A stretch of 45,172 nucleotides of DNA. It comes from Myxococcales bacterium (GTDB lineage: Bacteria; Myxococcota_A; Polyangia; Haliangiales; Haliangiaceae). Every line of letters starts with the position of its first letter. The first letter of the stretch is position 1. A model generated the notes under the pieces. The model was not told where the DNA came from, did no database searches, and saw nothing but the letters and a program-made list of their open reading frames with translations. The stretch covers positions 1-45,172 of the forward strand of contig JAEUJX010000473.1 in NCBI GenBank assembly GCA_016794545.1. Direction: 5' to 3'. This document shows, piece after piece, positions 27,919-38,864 of this stretch. The position numbers and the translations under genes are program-made.

Positions 27919-28860
27919 ATGGTCGCGCCTCGCACCGTCGTCATCGTCAACCCGAAGTCCCAGGGCGGGAAGCTCGGCAAGCGGTGGCCCGAGGTCGCCG
28001 AGACGCTCCAGCGCGCGTTCCCGTTCGACGAGCTGATGACCGAGGGCATGGGCGACGCGACGCGGCTCGCGCGCGAGGCGCTGAAGCGCGGCGCGGAGCG
28101 CATCGTCGCGATCGGCGGCGACGGCACGGTCAACGAGGTGGTCAACGGGTTCTTCGAGGACGGGAGGTCGATCGCACCCGACGCGACGTTCGGCCTGATC
28201 CCGTTCGGCACCGGCGGTGACTTCCGGCGCACGGTCGGCCTGCCCAAGGAGACCGCGGACGCGGCGGCGGTGATCGCGGCGGGCCACCGCCGCAAGATCG
28301 ACGTCGGCACGCTCGCCTTCACCGCCACGGATGGATCGCCCGCCACGAGGATGTTCGCGAACATCGCGTCGTTCGGCGTATCGGGCGTCGTCGATCGCCT
28401 GGTCAACGAGAGCGGCAAGAAGCTCGGCGGCAAGCTGTCGTTCATGTTCGCGAGCGTGCGCGCGACGTGGTCGTACAAGAACCAGCGCGTGCAGCTCACG
28501 CTCGATGGCAACGAGCGCATCGACCTCAGCATCAACACGGTCGCGGTCTCGAACGGCAAGTACTTCGGCGGCGGCATGATGGTCGCGCCAGACGCCGAGC
28601 TCGACGACGCCACGTTCGACGTCGTCGCGATCGGCGACGTCGGCATGGGCGAGGTGCTGAAGCTGTCGCGCAAGATCTACAAGGGCGAGCACCTGTCCAT
28701 GGACAAGGTGAGCGTGCGCCGCGCGAAGGTCGTCGACGCGGAGCCGATCGAGCCGGGCGCGATCGTCGAGCTGGACGTCGACGGAGAGAACCCGGGCCGG
28801 CTGCCCGCGCGGTTCGAGATCGTCCCCGCGGCGCTCTGGGTGGCGGCTCCCGCCACATAG
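27919..28860 (+). CDS. Diacylglycerol/sphingosine-type lipid kinase (YegS/DagK family)
   Basis: A 313-residue DAGK_cat family protein. Key motifs are the N-terminal NPKSQGGK (11-18), the nucleotide-binding GGDGTVNEVVNG (66-77) and GTGGDFRRT (97-105). A C-terminal beta-sandwich with GKYFGGGMMVAPDAELDDATFDVV follows. The family transfers phosphate from ATP to a diacylglycerol or related lipid at the inner face of the membrane; the specific lipid is not evident. It heads the recC-recB-recD cluster: recC begins 2 bases after its stop, so co-transcription is very likely although a functional link is not obvious. The start is supported by the TATACT box. Confidence 0.9.
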   Translation: MVAPRTVVIVNPKSQGGKLGKRWPEVAETLQRAFPFDELMTEGMGDATRLAREALKRGAERIVAIGGDGTVNEVVNGFFEDGRSIAPDATFGLIPFGTGGDFRRTVGLPKETADAAAVIAAGHRRKIDVGTLAFTATDGSPATRMFANIASFGVSGVVDRLVNESGKKLGGKLSFMFASVRATWSYKNQRVQLTLDGNERIDLSINTVAVSNGKYFGGGMMVAPDAELDDATFDVVAIGDVGMGEVLKLSRKIYKGEHLSMDKVSVRRAKVVDAEPIEPGAIVELDVDGENPGRLPARFEIVPAALWVAAPAT

Positions 28861-28862
28861 CC

Positions 28863-31800
28863 ATGCTGCGTGCGGTCCACAGTAACCGCGCCGAGGCCCT
28901 CCTCGCCGCGCTGCTCGAGGCATTGCCGCCTGCGGATCCGTTCGCGCCCGCGACGATCGTCGTCGGCGGCCACCTCGCGAAGCGCTGGCTGTTGCGCGAG
29001 ATCGCGTTCGCTCGCGGGATCGCCGCCGGACTGGAGCTGGTCACGTTCGATTCGTTCGTCGAGCACGCGTGGGCGGACCCGGAGCTCGGGCTGTCGCCGG
29101 TCGATCGCGCACAGCTCGTGTCGCTGTTCGCGAGCGTGCTCGCGGATCCGTCGGTGGTCCGCGCGCTGCCGCAGGTCGCGGCGTACCTCGACGAGGCGCC
29201 CCACGACGGCGACCGTGCCGGCCCGCGCCGCGTCCAGCTCGCGCACCACCTCGCGCGACTGACCTGGGGCTATGCGTCGACGCGGCCGGACTGGATGCCG
29301 GCGCTGATCGGCGGGCACGTGCCCGCGGAGCTCGAGGGCGATCCGACGGCACGCTGGCAGTCGAAGCTGATCGCCGCCGCGTTCGCGCGCGCCTCGCGCA
29401 CCGCCGAGGAGAGCGGCCAGCGCGCGCTCGTGCCGATGCTGCCGTGGGCGCGGCGGCGCCTGCACCTGCCGACGCCGCAGCTCGCCGGCCCGGTCGCGGT
29501 GTTCGGCATGCCGTACCTGTCGCGCGCGCAGCTCGAGGCGCTGACGGATCTCGCGCAGACCACGGACGTGACGGTCTACGTGCTCGATCCGTGCCGCGAG
29601 CTGTGGGACGACGTCGGCGGCCGCAAGACCGCGCAGGACGGCACGGTCACCGACCCGCTGCCGCTCGTCCTGTGGGGCAAGCCGGTGCGCGACACGCTCG
29701 CCGCGCTCGTCGAGCGGACCGGCGGCGACCTCGAGGATCGGTTCGTCGAGTCCGCCGGGGACTCGGCGCGCGAGCGCCTGCTCGCCGACGTGCAGGTCCG
29801 TGCCGCACCGGCGTCGACGGCGAGCGGCGAACCCGGCATCACGGTGCTCGCGTGCCCGAACGTGCGCCGCGAGATCGAGGCCATCGCGGCGGAGTCGCGC
29901 CGCCTGCTCGATGCCGATCCGGCGCTGCACGCGAACGAGATCTGCGTGTGGATCGCGGGCGATGCCGCGCGCTACCTCGCACAGGCGCCGTCGGCGTTCG
30001 AGGCGGTCGGCGTGCCCTGTCACCTGGTCGACGCGCCGATCGACGACCGCGGCCGGATCGCGGAGGCGATGCTCGCGCTGCTCGAGCTGCCGACCTCCGG
30101 CATGGCGCGCCGCGATCTGTTGCGCGTCATGACCCACCCGGCCGTGCTCGCCGGTCACCCGCACGTCGATGCGGCCGACTGGGTGCGCTGGACGGAGCGG
30201 CTCGGTGTCGCGCACGGCGCCGACGCGGCCGCGCACCAGGGTACGTACCTCGAGGCGTTCCCGGGCCAGTTCCACTGGGATCAGGGCGTGCGGCGGCTCG
30301 CGCTCGGCGCGTTCATGGTCGGCGAGCGCAGCGAGCGCGGACCGGTCCGGATCGCGCGGCTCGAGCTCGCGCCCGAGGAGGTGCGTCCCGACGAACAGGC
30401 GAGCGCCGCCACGTACGCGCTGCTCGTACGCTCGCTGTGCGACGACGCCGCGTGGCTCGCGCGCCGCGAGGCGACGCTGACCGAGTGGGCGGAGCTGTTC
30501 GCGAGCCTCGTCGACATCTACCTCGCATCGCGCGACACCGATGGGACGCGCGACCTCGAACGGGTGCGCGCGATGATGGCCGGCCTCGCGCACCTCGACA
30601 TCGACGGGCGCGCGATCGGGTTCCGCGAGGCGCGCGAGCACGCGATCAGGAAGCTGGCGTCGTCCACGTCGAACCGGGGCGAGCCGCTCGCGGCCGGCGT
30701 GATGGTCGCGCCGATCTCGTCGATGCACGCGCTGCCGTTCCAGGTCGGCTTCGTCGCCGGTCTCGACGAAGGCGCGTTCCCCGCCGGCGAGCAGCCGAGC
30801 CCGCTGGATCTGCGGCGCGAGGCGCGGCCCGGCGATGTCTCGCCGCGCGACCGCGACCGCGCCTCGTTCCTCGAGGTCCTGCTCGGCGCGCGTCGCGCGC
30901 TGTACCTGTCGTATGTCGCGGTCGAGGCCAAGAGCGGCCAGGCGCTGGGCCCGTCGTCGGTGGTGCTCGAGCTCGCCGACGCGCTCGCGCCGTACCTCGG
31001 TGCGCCGTCGAGCCGGGAGGCGCTCGAGCGGATCAAGCGGCGCGAGCCGCTGCACCGGTTCGGCGGCGACACGCCCGGCGTCGTGCCGGCGATCGCGCGC
31101 GAGCGCTGGGCGTGCGGGATCCGCGATCATGTGCGGGGCCACCTGCGCGCGAACAACCACAACATCCCGGACGAGAACGGCCTCTACGCGCTGCTCTCGC
31201 ACGCCTCGCAGACGCCGCTCCGCGCCGCGCTCGGCATCGTCGAGCCGCCGGCGCAGACCGCGATCGTCGCGACCTCGCGCGGGCTGTCGATCTCGAACCT
31301 GCGGACGTTCCTCGAGTACCCCGTGCAGGCGTGGGCGCAGGCCGTGCTGGGCCTCGACGAGCTGCCGGACGACGACCTCACGGAGCACAGCGACGAGCCG
31401 TTCCACCTCGATCGGCCATCGCGCGCCACGCTGCTCCGGAACGTGTTCGCCGCGCACCTCGCGGATCCGCGCACTCCGTTCGCGGCGCTGTACGACCGCG
31501 CCGTCGCGGACGAGCAGCTGAAGGGGCAGTTCCCCGTCGGCGTCTTCGCCGAGGCGGCGCGCGCGGTGGATCTCGCGGCCCTCGACATGTGGCGCCACCG
31601 GCTCGGCCCGATCCTCGAGGGCAGCGTCGTGCGCTACGGCTTCGGCCGCGCGTACTCCGCTGGCGCGGAGCTGATGCCGCCGCTCGCGATCCAGCTCCTC
31701 GACGGCCGGACTGTCCGCCTCGCGGGGCAGACCGAGCTCCTGATCAAGCGAGGTGACCGCCACACGTCGGTCGTCGTGCTGCTCGGCGAAGCCGAGGAGA

Positions 31801-32213
31801 AGTCGCGCTATCACCTGCGCGGAGCGTTCGATCACGTCGTGCTCGCCGCGGCGGGGCTCGCGCCCCAGGGCCACCAGCACGTCCTCCTCGACCCGAAGGG
31901 CAACGCGCTCCACGTCGACCACACGCCATGGACGCGCGAGGGTGCGCAGGCCCACCTCGCCACGCTGATCAACGAGCTGCTCGACGTCCCCCACGGCTAC
32001 CTGTTGCCGTTCGATGCCCTGGTCCGGGCGCACGCCGGCGGCCGCGCGTCGTTCCGCGACGACGAGCGCGCCATCGGCTTCGGGCCGATCGACCGCGCCG
32101 ACGGGCTCCACGCACCCGACGATCCCAAGGCGATCGCGAAGCGGAGGTTCGCGCCGTTCGTCGACCGGATGCGGGGCGACCACGGCTTCCGCGAGAAGGA
32201 GGCCAAGCCGTGA
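28863..32213 (+). CDS. recC: Exodeoxyribonuclease V gamma subunit RecC
   Basis: A 1116-residue protein, close to the 1122 of Escherichia coli RecC. It begins with the typical MLRAVHSNRAEALLAALLEAL and has FDSFVEHAW, VFGMPYLSRAQLEAL, ICVWIAGDAARYLAQAPSAFEAVGVPCHLVD, the region APISSMHALPFQVGFVAGLDEGAFP that matches the inactivated-helicase core, and RRALYLSYVA. RecC is the scaffold of RecBCD; it has lost helicase activity and recognises the Chi sequence in the 3' strand. Its gene order recC-recB-recD with 4-base overlaps implies stoichiometric translation. The start is 2 bases after the lipid kinase stop. Which Chi sequence it reads cannot be told from here. Confidence 0.9.
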   Translation: MLRAVHSNRAEALLAALLEALPPADPFAPATIVVGGHLAKRWLLREIAFARGIAAGLELVTFDSFVEHAWADPELGLSPVDRAQLVSLFASVLADPSVVRALPQVAAYLDEAPHDGDRAGPRRVQLAHHLARLTWGYASTRPDWMPALIGGHVPAELEGDPTARWQSKLIAAAFARASRTAEESGQRALVPMLPWARRRLHLPTPQLAGPVAVFGMPYLSRAQLEALTDLAQTTDVTVYVLDPCRELWDDVGGRKTAQDGTVTDPLPLVLWGKPVRDTLAALVERTGGDLEDRFVESAGDSARERLLADVQVRAAPASTASGEPGITVLACPNVRREIEAIAAESRRLLDADPALHANEICVWIAGDAARYLAQAPSAFEAVGVPCHLVDAPIDDRGRIAEAMLALLELPTSGMARRDLLRVMTHPAVLAGHPHVDAADWVRWTERLGVAHGADAAAHQGTYLEAFPGQFHWDQGVRRLALGAFMVGERSERGPVRIARLELAPEEVRPDEQASAATYALLVRSLCDDAAWLARREATLTEWAELFASLVDIYLASRDTDGTRDLERVRAMMAGLAHLDIDGRAIGFREAREHAIRKLASSTSNRGEPLAAGVMVAPISSMHALPFQVGFVAGLDEGAFPAGEQPSPLDLRREARPGDVSPRDRDRASFLEVLLGARRALYLSYVAVEAKSGQALGPSSVVLELADALAPYLGAPSSREALERIKRREPLHRFGGDTPGVVPAIARERWACGIRDHVRGHLRANNHNIPDENGLYALLSHASQTPLRAALGIVEPPAQTAIVATSRGLSISNLRTFLEYPVQAWAQAVLGLDELPDDDLTEHSDEPFHLDRPSRATLLRNVFAAHLADPRTPFAALYDRAVADEQLKGQFPVGVFAEAARAVDLAALDMWRHRLGPILEGSVVRYGFGRAYSAGAELMPPLAIQLLDGRTVRLAGQTELLIKRGDRHTSVVVLLGEAEEKSRYHLRGAFDHVVLAAAGLAPQGHQHVLLDPKGNALHVDHTPWTREGAQAHLATLINELLDVPHGYLLPFDALVRAHAGGRASFRDDERAIGFGPIDRADGLHAPDDPKAIAKRRFAPFVDRMRGDHGFREKEAKP
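32196..32202 (+). promoter_or_regulatory. Strong Shine-Dalgarno AAGGAGG for recB
   Basis: AAGGAGG lies inside the end of recC, 7 bases before the GTG at 32210, and decides the recB start. It contrasts with the absence of such sites before operon-first genes. Confidence 0.8.
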
Positions 32214-35200
32214 CCCGCGTCGCGCGCCCGAGCTCGCTGCCGCCGGCCGCCGATCGGTTCGTCGTGGTCGAGGCGTCCGCCGGTACGGGCAAGACGTTCT
32301 TCCTCGAGCACCGCGTCGTCGACCTGATCCTCGCGGGTGCCGAGCTCGGCCAGATCCTGCTCGTCACGTTCACCGAGAAGGCGGTCGCCGAGCTGCGGAT
32401 GAGGATCCGCGACCTGCTCGACCGGCTGTCGCGCGCGTCGGTGGACACCGCGGCCGAGGGCGATCCGGCCTGGGTGCTCGACGACGACGCTCGGAGTCGG
32501 CTGCGCGCCGCGGTGACCGCGTTCGATCACGCGCCGATCTTCACGATCCACGGGTTCTGCCACCGCATCCTCGTGGAGGATGCCTTCGCGGCGCGCCGGC
32601 TGTTCGAGCAGACCCAGATCGCCGACGAGGTCGCCTTCGACGCCGCGTTCGGCGTGGTGCTGCGCGAGCAGTTCGCGCGCGTGCCCGAGGACCGCGAGCT
32701 GCTCTCCGCCTTCCTCCAGAGCAACCGGACGATCGAACAGCTGCGCGACATGCTGCTCGCGTGCGCGCGCGCCGATGCGCCGCTGCGGCGCCAGCTCGAT
32801 CCCGCCGCCGCGCGCGCGGCCGTGGGCAAGGTGTACGCCGGGCTGCGCACGGAGGCGCAGCGAGATGCGGTGGTCGCGAGCATCTCGAACAAGACCGATC
32901 AGAAGTTCGTCGCGAGCCGCCTGCAGACGCTCGGCGTCGCGCTCGCGCTCCGCACGCCCGAGTCGCCGACCTCCGAGCTGCTCGCGATGATCGAGAGCGT
33001 GTACCGGCCGATGCTCGAGCTCCGCGGCAAGCTCGAGCACCTCGCGCGCGGCGCGCCGCTGATCCAGCGCGCCCTCGAGTGCGTGTCGGCGCTGCTCGAC
33101 ACGGCCGGCTCGCTCGACGAGTCCGTGGCCGCGGCGTTCCTGCCGAAAATCCTCGAGCGGATCGTCGCCGACAAGGCGGAGCACGGCCTGTTCGACTACG
33201 ACGACATGCTCGACCTCGTGTGGGACGCGTTGCGCGACGACCGCCGCGGCCCCGAGCTGGCGACGCGCCTGCGCACGCGGATGCCGTGGGCGATGATCGA
33301 CGAGTTCCAGGACACCGACCCGGTGCAGTGGGGCATCTTCCGCACGGTCTGGGTCAACCAGGCCGCGAAAGGCCTCACGATCGTCGGCGATCCGAAGCAG
33401 GCGATCTACGGGTTCCGCGGCGCCGACGTGAACACGTACCTCGCCGCGCGCGACGAGATGCTGCGCGCCGGCGCGACGCGCGTGGCACTGACCACGAACC
33501 GCCGGTCGACGGATCAGCTGGTCGCCGCGGTGAATCACCTGCTCGTCGGCAACGTCGGCCGTCCGCTGCTCGACCCGGTGCACGGCATCGCCTACGACGA
33601 GCCGGTGTCGGCGAGCGGCGACATCGTGGCGGATCCCGGCGTCACGCCACTGAAGCTGTTCGCGCTGCAGACGAAGGGCTCCTCGGACTCGCGCAAGGTC
33701 GCGCTCGGCACCGCGATCGGGCTCGCGATCGAGGACCTGCGGCGCGCCGCGCCCGCCTGGACGCTGCGGGGAGTCCCCCAGCCGTTCTCGCTCGGGCAGG
33801 TGATGGTGCTGACGCGCACGAACGGCGAGTCCGGCGAGGTCGCGGCGGCGCTGCGGGAGCGCGGGCTCGCGTGCGCGCTCGTCGAGCCGGAGCGGCTGTT
33901 CCAGACGCGCGAGGCCGCGGAGATCGCGAACGTGCTCGCGGCGATCGCGGCACCGCGCGACCGCTCGGCCCGGCTGCGCGCGCTGCGGACGCGGTTCTTC
34001 GACGTGCCGTGGAGCGATCTGGTGCGCGTCGTCGACGGGCCGGACCATCACCCGCAGGTCGCGCAGCTGTTCGACTGGGCGCAGCTCGCGGCGCGGCGTC
34101 AGTACGAGAGCCTGTTCCGCCACATCGTCGAGGACAGCCGGTTCGCCGAGCGGGCGCTCGTCCTCGGCGGCGGCGAGCGCGCGATCACGAACACGTGGCA
34201 CCTGGTCGAGCTGTTGCTCGCGGAGGTCGCGACGTCGCGCAGCGACCTGCACGAGCTCGTCGCGCGGCTGCGGCGGTGGATCGCCGACGACGCCGCGATG
34301 TCGGACGAGCGCGACGTGCAGCGCGCCGAGACCGACGTCGACTCGATCCGCGTGCTGACCACGCACAAGGCAAAGGGGCTCGAGGCGCCGTACGTGTTCC
34401 TCTACGGCGGCACGTGGGCGGTCGCGAACAAGCGCGTGCAGACGCTGCGCGATGCGGCCGGCCGCGCGCTCGTGATCGGCACCCCCGACCAGGCCACGCG
34501 GGCGGCGCTCGACGCGAACAACGACGCGGAGAACCAGCGCCTCGCGTACGTCGCGTTGACGCGCGCGCAGGTCCGGCTGTACCTCCCGCTGTACACGCAC
34601 GACACCGTGACGAAGGGTGGCGCGTACAAGCCGATCCAGGACGTCGTGCGGATCATGGACACGTCGAACGTCGCGCACGTGAAGGCGATGTTCGAGCGCC
34701 AGGTGATCGCGGTCGGTGCGGACGCGCTTCCGGAGCCACCGGCGGACGCGCTCGCGAGCTTCGTCGCGCCGCCGCCGCCGCCGATCGCGGAGCTGGCCGC
34801 GCTGCCGCTCGCGCGCACGGGTCTGACGATGCTGTCGTACACGCGCATCGCGCACGACCTCGACGCCGCGGCGATCGCACCGCCGCCGGGCGACATCCTC
34901 GCGTTCGACGACGCTGCCGAGTTCGACGTCGACGACACCGCCGGCGAGGTCGGGCCGCGCGAGCTGCCGCCCGGCGCGAGCGCCGGCCTCATGCTCCACG
35001 ACGTGCTCGAGATCGCGGACCTCGATCGGATCCGCGCGGCGCCCGACGCGGAGACGTGGGCGCGCGATCCGCAGGTGCAGGCCCAGCTCGTCGAGGCCGC
35101 GCGCAACCGCGGCATCGAGCGCGACAAGCTCGAACACGCCGCGAGCGTCATCCACGCCACGCTCGCGGCTCCGCTCGTGCTGACCGACGGCACCACGCTG

Positions 35201-35629
35201 CCCTCGCTGGCCGACGCCCCGCGGTTCGCGCGCGAGGTCGAGTTCAGCTACCCGCTCCCCGCCGGCGCCGCCGTCGCTCCGGGCCGCGGCCTGGTGAAGG
35301 GCTTCATCGACGCGCTCGTCTCGTGGAGCGATGACGAGCTGTGGGTGCTCGACTACAAGAGCGACCTCCTCATCGGCGACGATCTCGCGCGCGCCGGCAC
35401 GCAGCGCGTGAAGGAGCACTACGCCGTGCAGGCGCGCCTCTACGCGCTCGCGGCCGATCGGATGCGCGGCTCGCGGCGCCTCGCGGGTCTCCTGTTCCAG
35501 TTCGTGCGCCACGGGGTCGTGGTGCCGGTGCGCATCGGCGGCGACACGCTCGGCCTGTGGGCCTCCTGGCTCGCGAACCTGCCGGCGCCGGGGCTCGTCA
35601 CGAGCATCACCTCCGGAGAGCACCGATGA
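32210..35629 (+). CDS. recB: Exodeoxyribonuclease V beta subunit RecB
   Basis: A 1139-residue helicase-nuclease (Escherichia coli RecB has 1180). UvrD-type motifs in order: Walker A EASAGTGKT (21-29), TFTEKAVAELRMRIRDL (Ia), AMIDEFQDTDPVQW (II), GDPKQAIYGFRGAD (III), LTTHKAKGLEAPYVF (V) and RLAYVALTRAQVRLYL (VI). The C-terminal nuclease has KGFIDAL (D1034) and LDYKSD (D1048, K1050), followed by YAVQARLYALAADRM, so both the helicase and nuclease centres look intact. It unwinds 3'-5' and degrades DNA at double-strand breaks with RecC and RecD. It starts at GTG, overlapping the recC stop by four bases (GTGA). Confidence 0.95.
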   Translation: MTRVARPSSLPPAADRFVVVEASAGTGKTFFLEHRVVDLILAGAELGQILLVTFTEKAVAELRMRIRDLLDRLSRASVDTAAEGDPAWVLDDDARSRLRAAVTAFDHAPIFTIHGFCHRILVEDAFAARRLFEQTQIADEVAFDAAFGVVLREQFARVPEDRELLSAFLQSNRTIEQLRDMLLACARADAPLRRQLDPAAARAAVGKVYAGLRTEAQRDAVVASISNKTDQKFVASRLQTLGVALALRTPESPTSELLAMIESVYRPMLELRGKLEHLARGAPLIQRALECVSALLDTAGSLDESVAAAFLPKILERIVADKAEHGLFDYDDMLDLVWDALRDDRRGPELATRLRTRMPWAMIDEFQDTDPVQWGIFRTVWVNQAAKGLTIVGDPKQAIYGFRGADVNTYLAARDEMLRAGATRVALTTNRRSTDQLVAAVNHLLVGNVGRPLLDPVHGIAYDEPVSASGDIVADPGVTPLKLFALQTKGSSDSRKVALGTAIGLAIEDLRRAAPAWTLRGVPQPFSLGQVMVLTRTNGESGEVAAALRERGLACALVEPERLFQTREAAEIANVLAAIAAPRDRSARLRALRTRFFDVPWSDLVRVVDGPDHHPQVAQLFDWAQLAARRQYESLFRHIVEDSRFAERALVLGGGERAITNTWHLVELLLAEVATSRSDLHELVARLRRWIADDAAMSDERDVQRAETDVDSIRVLTTHKAKGLEAPYVFLYGGTWAVANKRVQTLRDAAGRALVIGTPDQATRAALDANNDAENQRLAYVALTRAQVRLYLPLYTHDTVTKGGAYKPIQDVVRIMDTSNVAHVKAMFERQVIAVGADALPEPPADALASFVAPPPPPIAELAALPLARTGLTMLSYTRIAHDLDAAAIAPPPGDILAFDDAAEFDVDDTAGEVGPRELPPGASAGLMLHDVLEIADLDRIRAAPDAETWARDPQVQAQLVEAARNRGIERDKLEHAASVIHATLAAPLVLTDGTTLPSLADAPRFAREVEFSYPLPAGAAVAPGRGLVKGFIDALVSWSDDELWVLDYKSDLLIGDDLARAGTQRVKEHYAVQARLYALAADRMRGSRRLAGLLFQFVRHGVVVPVRIGGDTLGLWASWLANLPAPGLVTSITSGEHR

Positions 35630-37572
35630 GCCAGCCGCTTCACCCGCAGGGCACGCTGCGCGCGCGGATCGAGCGCGTCGGCACCGGAGAGCTGTTCCGG
35701 AGGCTCGGCGTCGGCGCGCGCAGCTGCGACCTCGGCGACCAGGGCCTCTACCTCGCGGAGGAGCTGGTGGCCGCCGACGTCGGCTGGCTCGGCGCGAGCG
35801 ATCAGCCGGAGGCGCTCGCGATCCTCGTGCTCGCGCTGATGATCGCGCAGCGCCAGGGCTCGACATGCCTGCCGCTCGACGGCGGCAGGAAGGGGCCGCT
35901 GCGCGACCTGATCGCGGACATCGGCCGCGTCGCCAAGCTCGAGCTCGACGCCGCGCGGGTGATGAAGACGATCACGAACCTGACCGGCGCGCCGCGGTTC
36001 AACTCGGTGATCGGCGCCGGCGAGGCGCGCGTCCCGCTGATCGTCGATCTCGATGCGGTCTACACCGAGCGCGCGCGGTGGCTCGAGCAGCGCGTCGCAC
36101 ACCGCCTCGCCGAGCGCCTCGCCCGCCCCGCGCGCGACGAGTCCGCCGCGCTCGCGGACCTCGTCGCGCGCCCGGGCTCGCGCGCGCTGTCGGACGAGCA
36201 GCAGAAGGCCGTCGCGCTCGCGCTCGGCGGAGGCTTCACCGTGATCACCGGCGGCCCCGGCACGGGCAAGACGCTCGTCGCCGCGGCGATCGTGCGCGGC
36301 CTCGCGCGCCTCGGCGTGACGGAGATCGCGCTCGCCGCGCACACCGGCAAGGCGGCCAATCGTCTGACCGAGGTGATCGCGGAGCAGCTCGGCGCCATCG
36401 CGGATCCCTCGGAGTCCGATCGCGCGCTCGCCGCAGCGCCGCCCGCCGCGCAGACACTGCACCGCCTGCTCGGCTTCGGAGGCCACCGGTTCGCGCACCA
36501 CGCGCAGTCGCCGCTTCCCGCGGGAGCGGTCCTGGTCGACGAGGCCTCGATGGTCGACCTCGAGATGATGGACGCGCTGCTCGACGCGCTGCCCGCGAGC
36601 TCGCCGCTGATCCTCGTGGGCGACGCGCACCAGCTCCCGGCGATCGACGCCGGCCAGATCCTCGCGGACCTCGCCGAGCCCGGCGTCGCGCCGCGGGTCG
36701 CGGTCCTCGCCACGAGCTACCGGATGAACCTCGACGACGCCGCGGGCCGCGCCGTCTACGACCTCGCTCAGGCCATCCACGACGACGACCTCGGCAAGCT
36801 CGCCTCGCGCGCCGTGCCGCGCACGCCGAGCTCGCTCGCGTTCACGGGAGCCGAGTGGGTCGATCCGAGCACCGCGAAGAAGCCGCACGACGTCACGCTC
36901 GCCGTCGCCGAGACCACCTGGCACCACTTCGGCGGCCCCGCCGCGCTGCGCGCCTCCGAGACGGTGTTCCGGTTCGTCGACGGCACGATCGATCCGCGCG
37001 ACGCCGCGGCGCTCGAGGCCCTGTGGACGCAGCTCCAACGCGGCCGCATCCTCACCGTCACGCGCGCGCTCCCCACCGGCTCCGTCGCGATCAACGCGCA
37101 CCTCCACGAGCTCGCGCTCGAGCGCCTCACCGTCACGGGCCGCCCCGACTTCGTCCCCGGCGAGCCCGTGATGGTCACCGCGAACGACTACCACCGCGGC
37201 CTGTTCAACGGCGACCAGGGCCTCATCGTCCGCGCCGACGAGGGCCTCGACCGTCACCACTTCCGCGCCGTGTTCCGCTGCGGCGGCCAGCTCCGCCCGT
37301 TCGCCATCGAGGCCCTCCGCGATCGCCTCGAGCTCTCGTGGGCCCTCACCGTCCACAAGTCGCAGGGCTCCGAGCTCGACGGCATCGCCCTCCTCCTCCC
37401 CCACGACGACCTCCCGCTCGTCACGCGCGAGCTGCTCTACACCGGCATCACGCGCGCCCGCCGCGGCGTCGTGCTCTGCGGCTCGAAGGCGATCCTCACC
37501 AGCGGTGCCAGGCGCGGTGCCCTCCGTCACTCGCGGCTCGGCGCGCGACTTCGTGCCAAGCTGACCTCGTGA
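35626..37572 (+). CDS. recD: Exodeoxyribonuclease V alpha subunit RecD
   Basis: A 648-residue superfamily 1B 5'-3' helicase (Escherichia coli RecD has 608). Motifs: Walker A GGPGTGKT (209-216), LAAHTGKAANRLTE, QTLHRLLGF, motif II VLVDEASMVDLEMMD, GDAHQLPAIDAGQILADL (III), TSYRMN, GEPVMVTANDY, LTVHKSQGSELDGIALLLP (V) and LLYTGITRARRGVVLCG (VI). The N-terminal 190 residues include the RecBC-binding domain (YLAEELVAADVGWL). The ATG overlaps the recB stop (ATGA), with GGAGAG upstream. Its own stop overlaps the next small gene (GTGA), so the operon extends one gene further. All helicase residues look intact. Confidence 0.95.
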   Translation: MSQPLHPQGTLRARIERVGTGELFRRLGVGARSCDLGDQGLYLAEELVAADVGWLGASDQPEALAILVLALMIAQRQGSTCLPLDGGRKGPLRDLIADIGRVAKLELDAARVMKTITNLTGAPRFNSVIGAGEARVPLIVDLDAVYTERARWLEQRVAHRLAERLARPARDESAALADLVARPGSRALSDEQQKAVALALGGGFTVITGGPGTGKTLVAAAIVRGLARLGVTEIALAAHTGKAANRLTEVIAEQLGAIADPSESDRALAAAPPAAQTLHRLLGFGGHRFAHHAQSPLPAGAVLVDEASMVDLEMMDALLDALPASSPLILVGDAHQLPAIDAGQILADLAEPGVAPRVAVLATSYRMNLDDAAGRAVYDLAQAIHDDDLGKLASRAVPRTPSSLAFTGAEWVDPSTAKKPHDVTLAVAETTWHHFGGPAALRASETVFRFVDGTIDPRDAAALEALWTQLQRGRILTVTRALPTGSVAINAHLHELALERLTVTGRPDFVPGEPVMVTANDYHRGLFNGDQGLIVRADEGLDRHHFRAVFRCGGQLRPFAIEALRDRLELSWALTVHKSQGSELDGIALLLPHDDLPLVTRELLYTGITRARRGVVLCGSKAILTSGARRGALRHSRLGARLRAKLTS

Positions 37573-37751
37573 CCGAGTGCACCCACGAGACGCGCACGAA
37601 CGGCGTGTGCGCCACGTGCGGCCACTGCGAGCACGACGTGATCCTGAACGGCGCCTGCTACTACTGCGGCTCGACGGAGATCGACGGCGTCGCGATCTCG
37701 CCGAAGAAACCCACGGTCATCCCGGCCGACGCGCTCGTGCGCAAGAAATAG
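37569..37751 (+). CDS. 60-residue double zinc-knuckle protein coupled to recD
   Basis: A 60-residue protein starting at GTG within the recD stop (GTGA overlap). It contains two tandem 16-residue units of pattern C-x-H-x7-C-x2-C-G: CTHETRTNGVCATCGH (C4, H6, C14, C17) and CEHDVILNGACYYCGS (C20, H22, C30, C33). Each unit could hold one zinc ion with three Cys and one His. A flexible tail ending DALVRKK follows. No known family was recognised. Codon use matches the neighbouring rec genes and the spacing argues for translation with recD, so a role with RecBCD or DNA ends is an attractive guess only. Its TAG stop is formed by the first bases of the adjacent transposon end. Confidence 0.75.
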   Translation: MTECTHETRTNGVCATCGHCEHDVILNGACYYCGSTEIDGVAISPKKPTVIPADALVRKK

Positions 37752-37833: not shown

Positions 37834-37862
37834 TTCGCAACGAGGTGGCCGATATCGGCCGC

Positions 37863-38864
37863 ATGCGCACGGCCCGCTTCTGCACCCCCGGTCTCGCCTA
37901 TCACTGCATCTGGCGCTTCGTCGACCGAGACTGGTTCTTCGAATCTCACGACGAACGCGCGAACTACCTGCGGTTGCTCGGTCACGCGTTCGGTCGCACG
38001 GACTGGCGCTGCCTCGCCTACGCGCTCATGAGCAATCACATCCACGTCGCCGCGATCGCTGGTCGCAAGCCGATGGCCAGCTGGACGCGGGCAGTGAACT
38101 CGCCGTTCGCGAACTGGATGAACCGAAAACGGGGACGTCTCGGACCGCTGTTCGCGGATCGCTCCAAGGACTTCCAGATCCGCTCCGGCGGCGTGGGCGA
38201 GGTGATCGCGTACATCCACAACAATCCCGTGAGGGCAGGCGTCGTCGCACGCGCACGCCATTCCGACTGGACATCGCATCGCGCATACGCGGGACTTGTC
38301 GAAGGTCCCGCGTGGCTCGCCGTCGACGAAGGGCTCGCGCGCTCGGGATTTGACCGACCGCGCGAGTTCGATGCATGGGTGGACATCACCCCGGGCGAGT
38401 CGGCGGAGGTCTCGATCGAGCGCTTCAAGAAGCAGTTGAGGCGGCGCGGGTCGCTCGAGCCTGCCACCCCCACCAAGCACGGCGACCAGGTTGCGTTCCC
38501 GTTGATGGCCCGGCGTCACTTCTTCCTCCGCCCGAGTCCTGCACGAGTGATCGAGCTCGTTGCCGAGCTCTGTGACGAGCAACCCGAATTGATCTGCTCG
38601 CGGCGGCGGCTTCCGCGTCTCTCAGCGATTCGCGTCGTTGTCGCTCACTGCGCGAGCTCCCTCGGTATCACACCGACCGAGACCGCCTCTGCGCTCGGCA
38701 TCAGCTGCCAGGCCGTGAGCTCGATGCTTCGCCGCGAGGTCGAGCCCCAGCTGCGCGGAGTGCTGTCGGCGTGTCTTCACACGTTGCGCGTGGAGTTCTG
38801 GAATCGCGACCCCAGCCGTCCCCCACTTGACGGCTCGTTGAGTTCGTCCCTCGCGAGCCAGTGA
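37863..38864 (+). CDS. REP-associated tyrosine transposase (Y1/HUH) with C-terminal HTH
   Basis: A 333-residue protein (339 if the GTG at 37845 is used). The Y1 transposase core has FCTPGLAYHCIWRFVDRDWFF at the start, the metal-binding HUH motif SNHIHVAA (H59, H61) and the catalytic tyrosine in EVIAYIHNNPVRAGVV (Y117). The family cuts and joins single-stranded DNA at REP hairpins. Beyond residue 200 there is a second region ending in a helix-turn-helix, LGITPTETASALGISCQAVSSML, similar to the DnaA-like HTH in longer RAYTs. The frame is intact, so the enzyme may be functional. It is a single-copy domesticated or recently moved element; only one copy is visible here. Confidence 0.88.
   Translation: MRTARFCTPGLAYHCIWRFVDRDWFFESHDERANYLRLLGHAFGRTDWRCLAYALMSNHIHVAAIAGRKPMASWTRAVNSPFANWMNRKRGRLGPLFADRSKDFQIRSGGVGEVIAYIHNNPVRAGVVARARHSDWTSHRAYAGLVEGPAWLAVDEGLARSGFDRPREFDAWVDITPGESAEVSIERFKKQLRRRGSLEPATPTKHGDQVAFPLMARRHFFLRPSPARVIELVAELCDEQPELICSRRRLPRLSAIRVVVAHCASSLGITPTETASALGISCQAVSSMLRREVEPQLRGVLSACLHTLRVEFWNRDPSRPPLDGSLSSSLASQ

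Follow-up and report, generated by a model that had tools for sequence, protein, structure and literature searches.

Does the short open reading frame that follows recD in this stretch of DNA (45,172 nucleotides, hereafter the window) encode a protein, and if it does, is that protein likely to work with the DNA-break-repair enzyme RecBCD? The frame, which we call zk, had been presented in a preliminary description as an undescribed double zinc-knuckle gene closing the recC-recB-recD operon. Pfam confirms recC, recB and recD upstream of it (Table 1), and its product, translated from 37569-37751 of the forward strand, is VTECTHETRTNGVCATCGHCEHDVILNGACYYCGSTEIDGVAISPKKPTVIPADALVRKK. The described GTGA overlap is present, with zk starting as GTG at 37569 and recD stopping as TGA at 37570-37572; the recC/recB junction is GTGA as had also been claimed, but the recB/recD junction, given as GTGA too, is in fact ATGA at 35626.

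Table 1. Features of the recC-recB-recD-zk locus, in positions of the window, with the basis for each
Feature	Position	Strand	Basis or remark
recC, Exonuc_V_gamma and RecC_C (PF04257, PF17946)	28467..32213	+	Pfam; exact start uncertain
recB, UvrD helicase and PD-(D/E)XK nuclease	32210..35629	+	GTGA overlap with recC
recD	35626..37572	+	Start taken at ATGA overlap with recB; longer ORF 35341-37572 is mechanical
GTGA overlap of zk start and recD stop	37569..37572	+	Suggests translational coupling; overlap in 15/18 recD-linked relatives
zk, 60-aa double C-x-H-x7-C-x2-C protein, last gene of the operon	37569..37751	+	ORF and translation; homologues; ps>pn; GC3
zk unit 1, C4-x-H6-x7-C14-x2-C17	37578..37619	+	Absent from the G292 fusion and G299
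zk unit 2, C20-x-H22-D-V-I-L-N27-G-A-C30-x2-C33	37626..37667	+	C20, H22, N27, C30, C33 invariant in 29/29
zk C-terminal tail, consensus STDLDPxAxSPKxxPxLIPxxxLxRKx	37671..37748	+	Conserved; kept in RecD fusion

The DNA beyond the operon has features of its own. The segment 37751-38910, which begins right at the zk stop codon, resembles a REP/RAYT element. In it, an ORF for a transposase of the Y1/IS200-like (RAYT-type) kind at 37845-38864 (PF01797, E 0.0009, below the cut-off) is flanked by the repeat GGGACGGTCTCAAC, with two direct copies before it (37751 and 37811) and inverted copies after it at 38837 (2 mismatches) and 38897, giving four matches where 0.5 are expected.

Composition and conservation of zk

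The open reading frame, its 60-residue length and its two C-x-H-x7-C-x2-C units, as first described, are all found in the translation. The ligand sets read from it are C4/H6/C14/C17 and C20/H22/C30/C33; each unit has the form C-x-H-x7-C-x2-C-G, the two being offset by 16 residues with identical spacing, and two such units appeared in only 1 of 1,000,000 shuffles of the zk residues. The repeats had been called exact, which is true of their spacing but not of their sequence, as units 1 and 2 are identical at only 7 of 16 positions. The tail, reported as flexible and basic, proved to be only mildly basic in a protein that is approximately neutral overall. The tail is conserved as well, so there is more to the protein than its two metal sites.

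This DNA has many long shadow ORFs and the zk frame stays open far upstream (it is open for 779 codons), as would suit a frame left open by chance in GC-rich DNA rather than a gene. This reading is opposed by homologues in 29 of the 30 genomes of the window's GTDB family (Kofleriaceae-type Myxococcota), the sole genome without one being only 59% complete, by an excess of synonymous over replacement difference proportions (ps>pn) in 399 of 406 pairs of homologues, by the invariant ligands and by homology that begins at the recD stop. The GC3 of zk is 0.97. In an alignment of the 29 members C20, H22, N27, C30 and C33 are invariant and C4, H6, C14, C17, L26, G34 and L56 nearly so, with unit 1 missing in two genomes (G292 and G299). 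Given this comparative evidence, the chance-ORF reading is in effect already refuted, and zk is, as judged from sequence comparison, a real, conserved and previously unnamed gene family.

An AlphaFold2 model of zk (13 sequences) is of low confidence, with a pLDDT of 66; in it both units contain a short strand-turn-strand that turns at the conserved N-G. Each unit is most likely a minimal β-hairpin closed by one presumed Zn2+, probably opening with CxH, turning at N-G or D/E-G and ending with C-x2-C-G. Because G292 and G299 keep unit 2 without unit 1, a unit is more likely to be a self-contained putative metal site than one half of a crossed pair.

Relation to known zinc proteins and taxonomic spread

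The CCHC zinc knuckle (retroviral nucleocapsid, zf-CCHC) resembles zk in having four ligands within approximately 14 residues, often as a tandem pair, but its ligand order and spacing are C-x2-C-x4-H-x4-C as against C-x-H-x7-C-x2-C. With this difference, and with zf-CCHC matching none of the 29 members, the zinc-knuckle label had to be abandoned. Double zinc ribbons (Zn_ribbon_6/YfgJ PF07191, DZR PF12773) are likewise small proteins with two Cys-rich metal sites, but zk has CxH where they have their first CxxC, some zk members have a single unit, and no profile from the double zinc ribbon families matches the tail. Matches to these profiles were weak (E 0.004-0.014) and confined to a few members; the window protein was rejected as a double zinc ribbon (PF07191/PF12773/PF18912), its best score being 15.8 bits to Zn_ribbon_6 against a cut-off of 25, and the resemblance is only a loose one. 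FCP1-type phosphatases have an N-terminal CxHx~7CxxCG motif with apparently similar ligand spacing to zk; unlike zk, they are eukaryotic and the motif is part of a large enzyme, and we regard the similarity as a lead only. The window's own genome also encodes a multi-ribbon protein of unknown function (L126, C328:12153) that carries CxHx7CxxCG and several CxxC pairs.

The preliminary description was right to call zk undescribed, in that no Pfam or NCBIfam family fits: across zk and all 29 members no model reached its cut-off, and only sub-threshold zinc-ribbon noise was seen. PADLOC-DB (anti-phage defence) gave no match to zk, the best PHROGs match (E 0.0014) was to a small family of unknown function and is not convincing, and PDB searches by zk sequence profile or by Foldseek on the low-confidence model returned nothing below E 0.08. 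When 379 Myxococcota genomes were searched with a zk profile, strong matches were confined to the window's family and the remainder were at chance level (E 0.0015 or worse), while a DNA pattern of unit 2 matched 7 of the 379 genomes, all in that family, and a reversed control pattern matched none. Two peptide patterns run against GTDB species genomes recovered 13 loci, every one of them carrying the label Myxococcales, Kofleriaceae or deltaproteobacteria (Kofleriaceae and Myxococcales bacterium are among the names in homologue records); no homologues were detected elsewhere in GTDB at high stringency, and no relatives were found in the viral contigs of IMG/VR. Within the coverage of these libraries, the family is new.

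Position of zk relative to recD

The zk gene follows recD in 18 of the 29 homologue-bearing genomes, these being all 15 such genomes of the window's genus together with G311, G299 and G300. Relatives therefore do carry homologues with conserved Cys/His next to recD, an absence of which the preliminary description had named as counting against the gene, and in the window's clade their loci bear out its placement of zk as the last gene of the operon. The junction is a GTGA or ATGA overlap in 15 of the 18, a gap in two (about 12 and 34 bases, in G311 and G291) and a fusion in one. For G300 the link is a presumed one across a contig break, the recD contig ending inside recD and the zk contig starting 27 bases before an ATGA overlap with an upstream frame. 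The fusion, known from one MAG only (G292, L051 positions 2700-2879), joins RecD in frame to a one-unit version of zk, running from the RecD C-terminus ...ALRFSGLPLRI through AAAAARAN to ACEHDVIINGVCDACG and a tail ending ...NVVPIGRLTKPR, so that unit 1 is gone and unit 2 and the tail are kept. G299 encodes a 50-residue one-unit version that starts in an ATGA overlap with recD, and its RecD is only ~31% identical to that of the window.

Within 1.5 kb downstream of zk, only 2 of 153 pairs of linked loci share any ORF similarity. Since zk is kept at the end of the operon while everything downstream has been replaced between species, its placement at the end of recCBD looks selected. In a RecD tree 17 linked genomes form one group and G299 lies far off, at a place made unsure by its long branch; this topology calls for either two origins of the linkage or an ancestral link followed by losses. 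With the linked genomes outside G299 falling in one RecD group, the linkage may have arisen only twice.

In the other 11 genomes (genera g2, g192 and g193) zk lies away from recBCD, near argininosuccinate synthase, aldehyde dehydrogenase, a divergent methyltransferase and kinase, or a response regulator and NhaA, and the proposition that zk always travels with recBCD was accordingly rejected. Using PF04257 and a RecD C-terminal piece as queries to locate recC and recD in the family, we found recC in most of the unlinked genomes, and no zk-like gene after recD in those loci where the recD end is readable. A conserved partner gene for zk was looked for among the unlinked genomes and not found. 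Sister families of the order possess recD itself, and where the sequence is readable no zk follows it; the RecBCD operons of these other Myxococcota thus resemble that of the window in recC, recB and recD, and differ in having no small zinc-site gene after recD. To our knowledge, the E. coli operon for the RecB, RecC and RecD subunits is also without a fourth gene of this kind after recD.

Two observations on these genomes stand apart. In the genus g2 loci L041, L042 and L045, the neighbours of the unlinked zk are a methyltransferase read divergently and a protein kinase that has a cyclic-nucleotide-binding domain. In G302 (genus g192; L067 / L125), RecD is extended by ~200 low-complexity residues that end in a separate Cys/His cluster, CCGHKSAALLRCPRCAHIWVECCTC, and the same genome has zk elsewhere.

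A possible accessory protein of RecBCD

The presence of zk in 29 of 30 family genomes whether linked or not, the varied and unrelated neighbourhoods in 11 of 29, and the recD genes without zk in sister families would all fit a family-wide small zinc protein of other function (e.g. one that partners the transcription or translation machinery or some other enzyme of DNA metabolism), for which the recCBD-end site in one clade gives steady low-level expression only, with no RecBCD contact. We consider this main rival to an accessory role quite possible, at somewhat less than even odds, as it has to contend with recD linkage in the very divergent G299, with the RecD fusion in G292, and with retention of zk at the operon end while downstream synteny was lost.

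The reading that we prefer, at a probability of roughly 0.5, is that zk is a lineage-specific zinc-hairpin accessory protein of RecD/RecBCD, the binding, metal and effect each being presumed. Translation is coupled across short gene overlaps, and such overlaps are over-represented where genes encode the subunits of a heteromeric complex (PMC10666635). In combination with the RecD fusion, this favours as the best explanation an accessory protein of RecD/RecBCD that is assembled co-translationally, and the natural fusion strengthens the link to RecBCD. Linkage to recD in 18 of 29 genomes (15 by a 4-base overlap), the overlap in G299, the fusion in G292, the near absence of shared downstream ORFs, the invariant ligands and the low-confidence strand-turn-strand of each unit count in favour of an accessory role; the origin of the fusion in a single MAG, a linkage that may have arisen only twice and the low confidence of the model count against it. 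The RecBCD cofactor that had been suggested from the window alone therefore retains its link to recD, through neighbouring homologues directly 3' of it and fusion to a subunit in one MAG, but loses its strictness, since 11 of the 29 homologues are found apart from recBCD. Those unrelated neighbourhoods, and sister-family recD genes without zk, weaken the case for a dedicated RecBCD subunit; we find it rather unlikely, though worth stating, that zk is a fourth, cellular subunit, a zinc β-hairpin protein co-translationally assembled on RecD that changes motor, end-binding or Chi behaviour in the window's family.

As an accessory protein, zk might act as follows. Ribosomes finishing recD would re-initiate at the GTGA/ATGA overlap, and the zk peptide would then be made where and when RecD emerges. 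It could dock on the C-terminal region of RecD, probably via unit 2 and the xLIPxxxLxRK tail, and once docked might stabilise or tune the RecD motor, or the contact of RecD with DNA or RecC.

There is precedent for small proteins that inhibit RecBCD or ride on it in gp5.9 and Abc2, phage proteins of which Abc2 binds without inhibiting; gp5.9 forms an acidic coiled-coil, Abc2 is helical and extended, and zinc is not mentioned in the text (PMC9836394). Both are phage-encoded and unrelated to zk, whereas zk is chromosomal and sits in the recD operon. Its small size and coupling to the enzyme would be compatible with dosage-matched inhibition, in which case zk would restrain RecBCD or compete with it for DNA ends as a chromosomally encoded equivalent of phage inhibitors such as gp5.9 or Gam. 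We think this improbable, given that zk is without the acidic DNA-mimic character of gp5.9 (pI 4.0), that no phage homologue was found in IMG/VR, and that an inhibitor would not usually be coupled constitutively to the enzyme it targets.

A repair operon that includes a small zinc protein is a variation on known themes. Descriptions of RecBCD usually present a heterotrimer that needs no further partner, the small RecBCD-acting proteins that we found in the literature are phage-encoded, and a literature search for RecBCD accessory or zinc proteins returned nothing relevant. If the accessory reading is true, a chromosomal, translationally coupled and conserved partner of RecD would provide a new handle on RecBCD regulation outside E. 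coli, and the natural fusion in G292 offers a direct test of contact between zk and RecD. The family also illustrates that a gene of 60 residues can be fixed across a bacterial family and yet be without a Pfam or NCBIfam entry.
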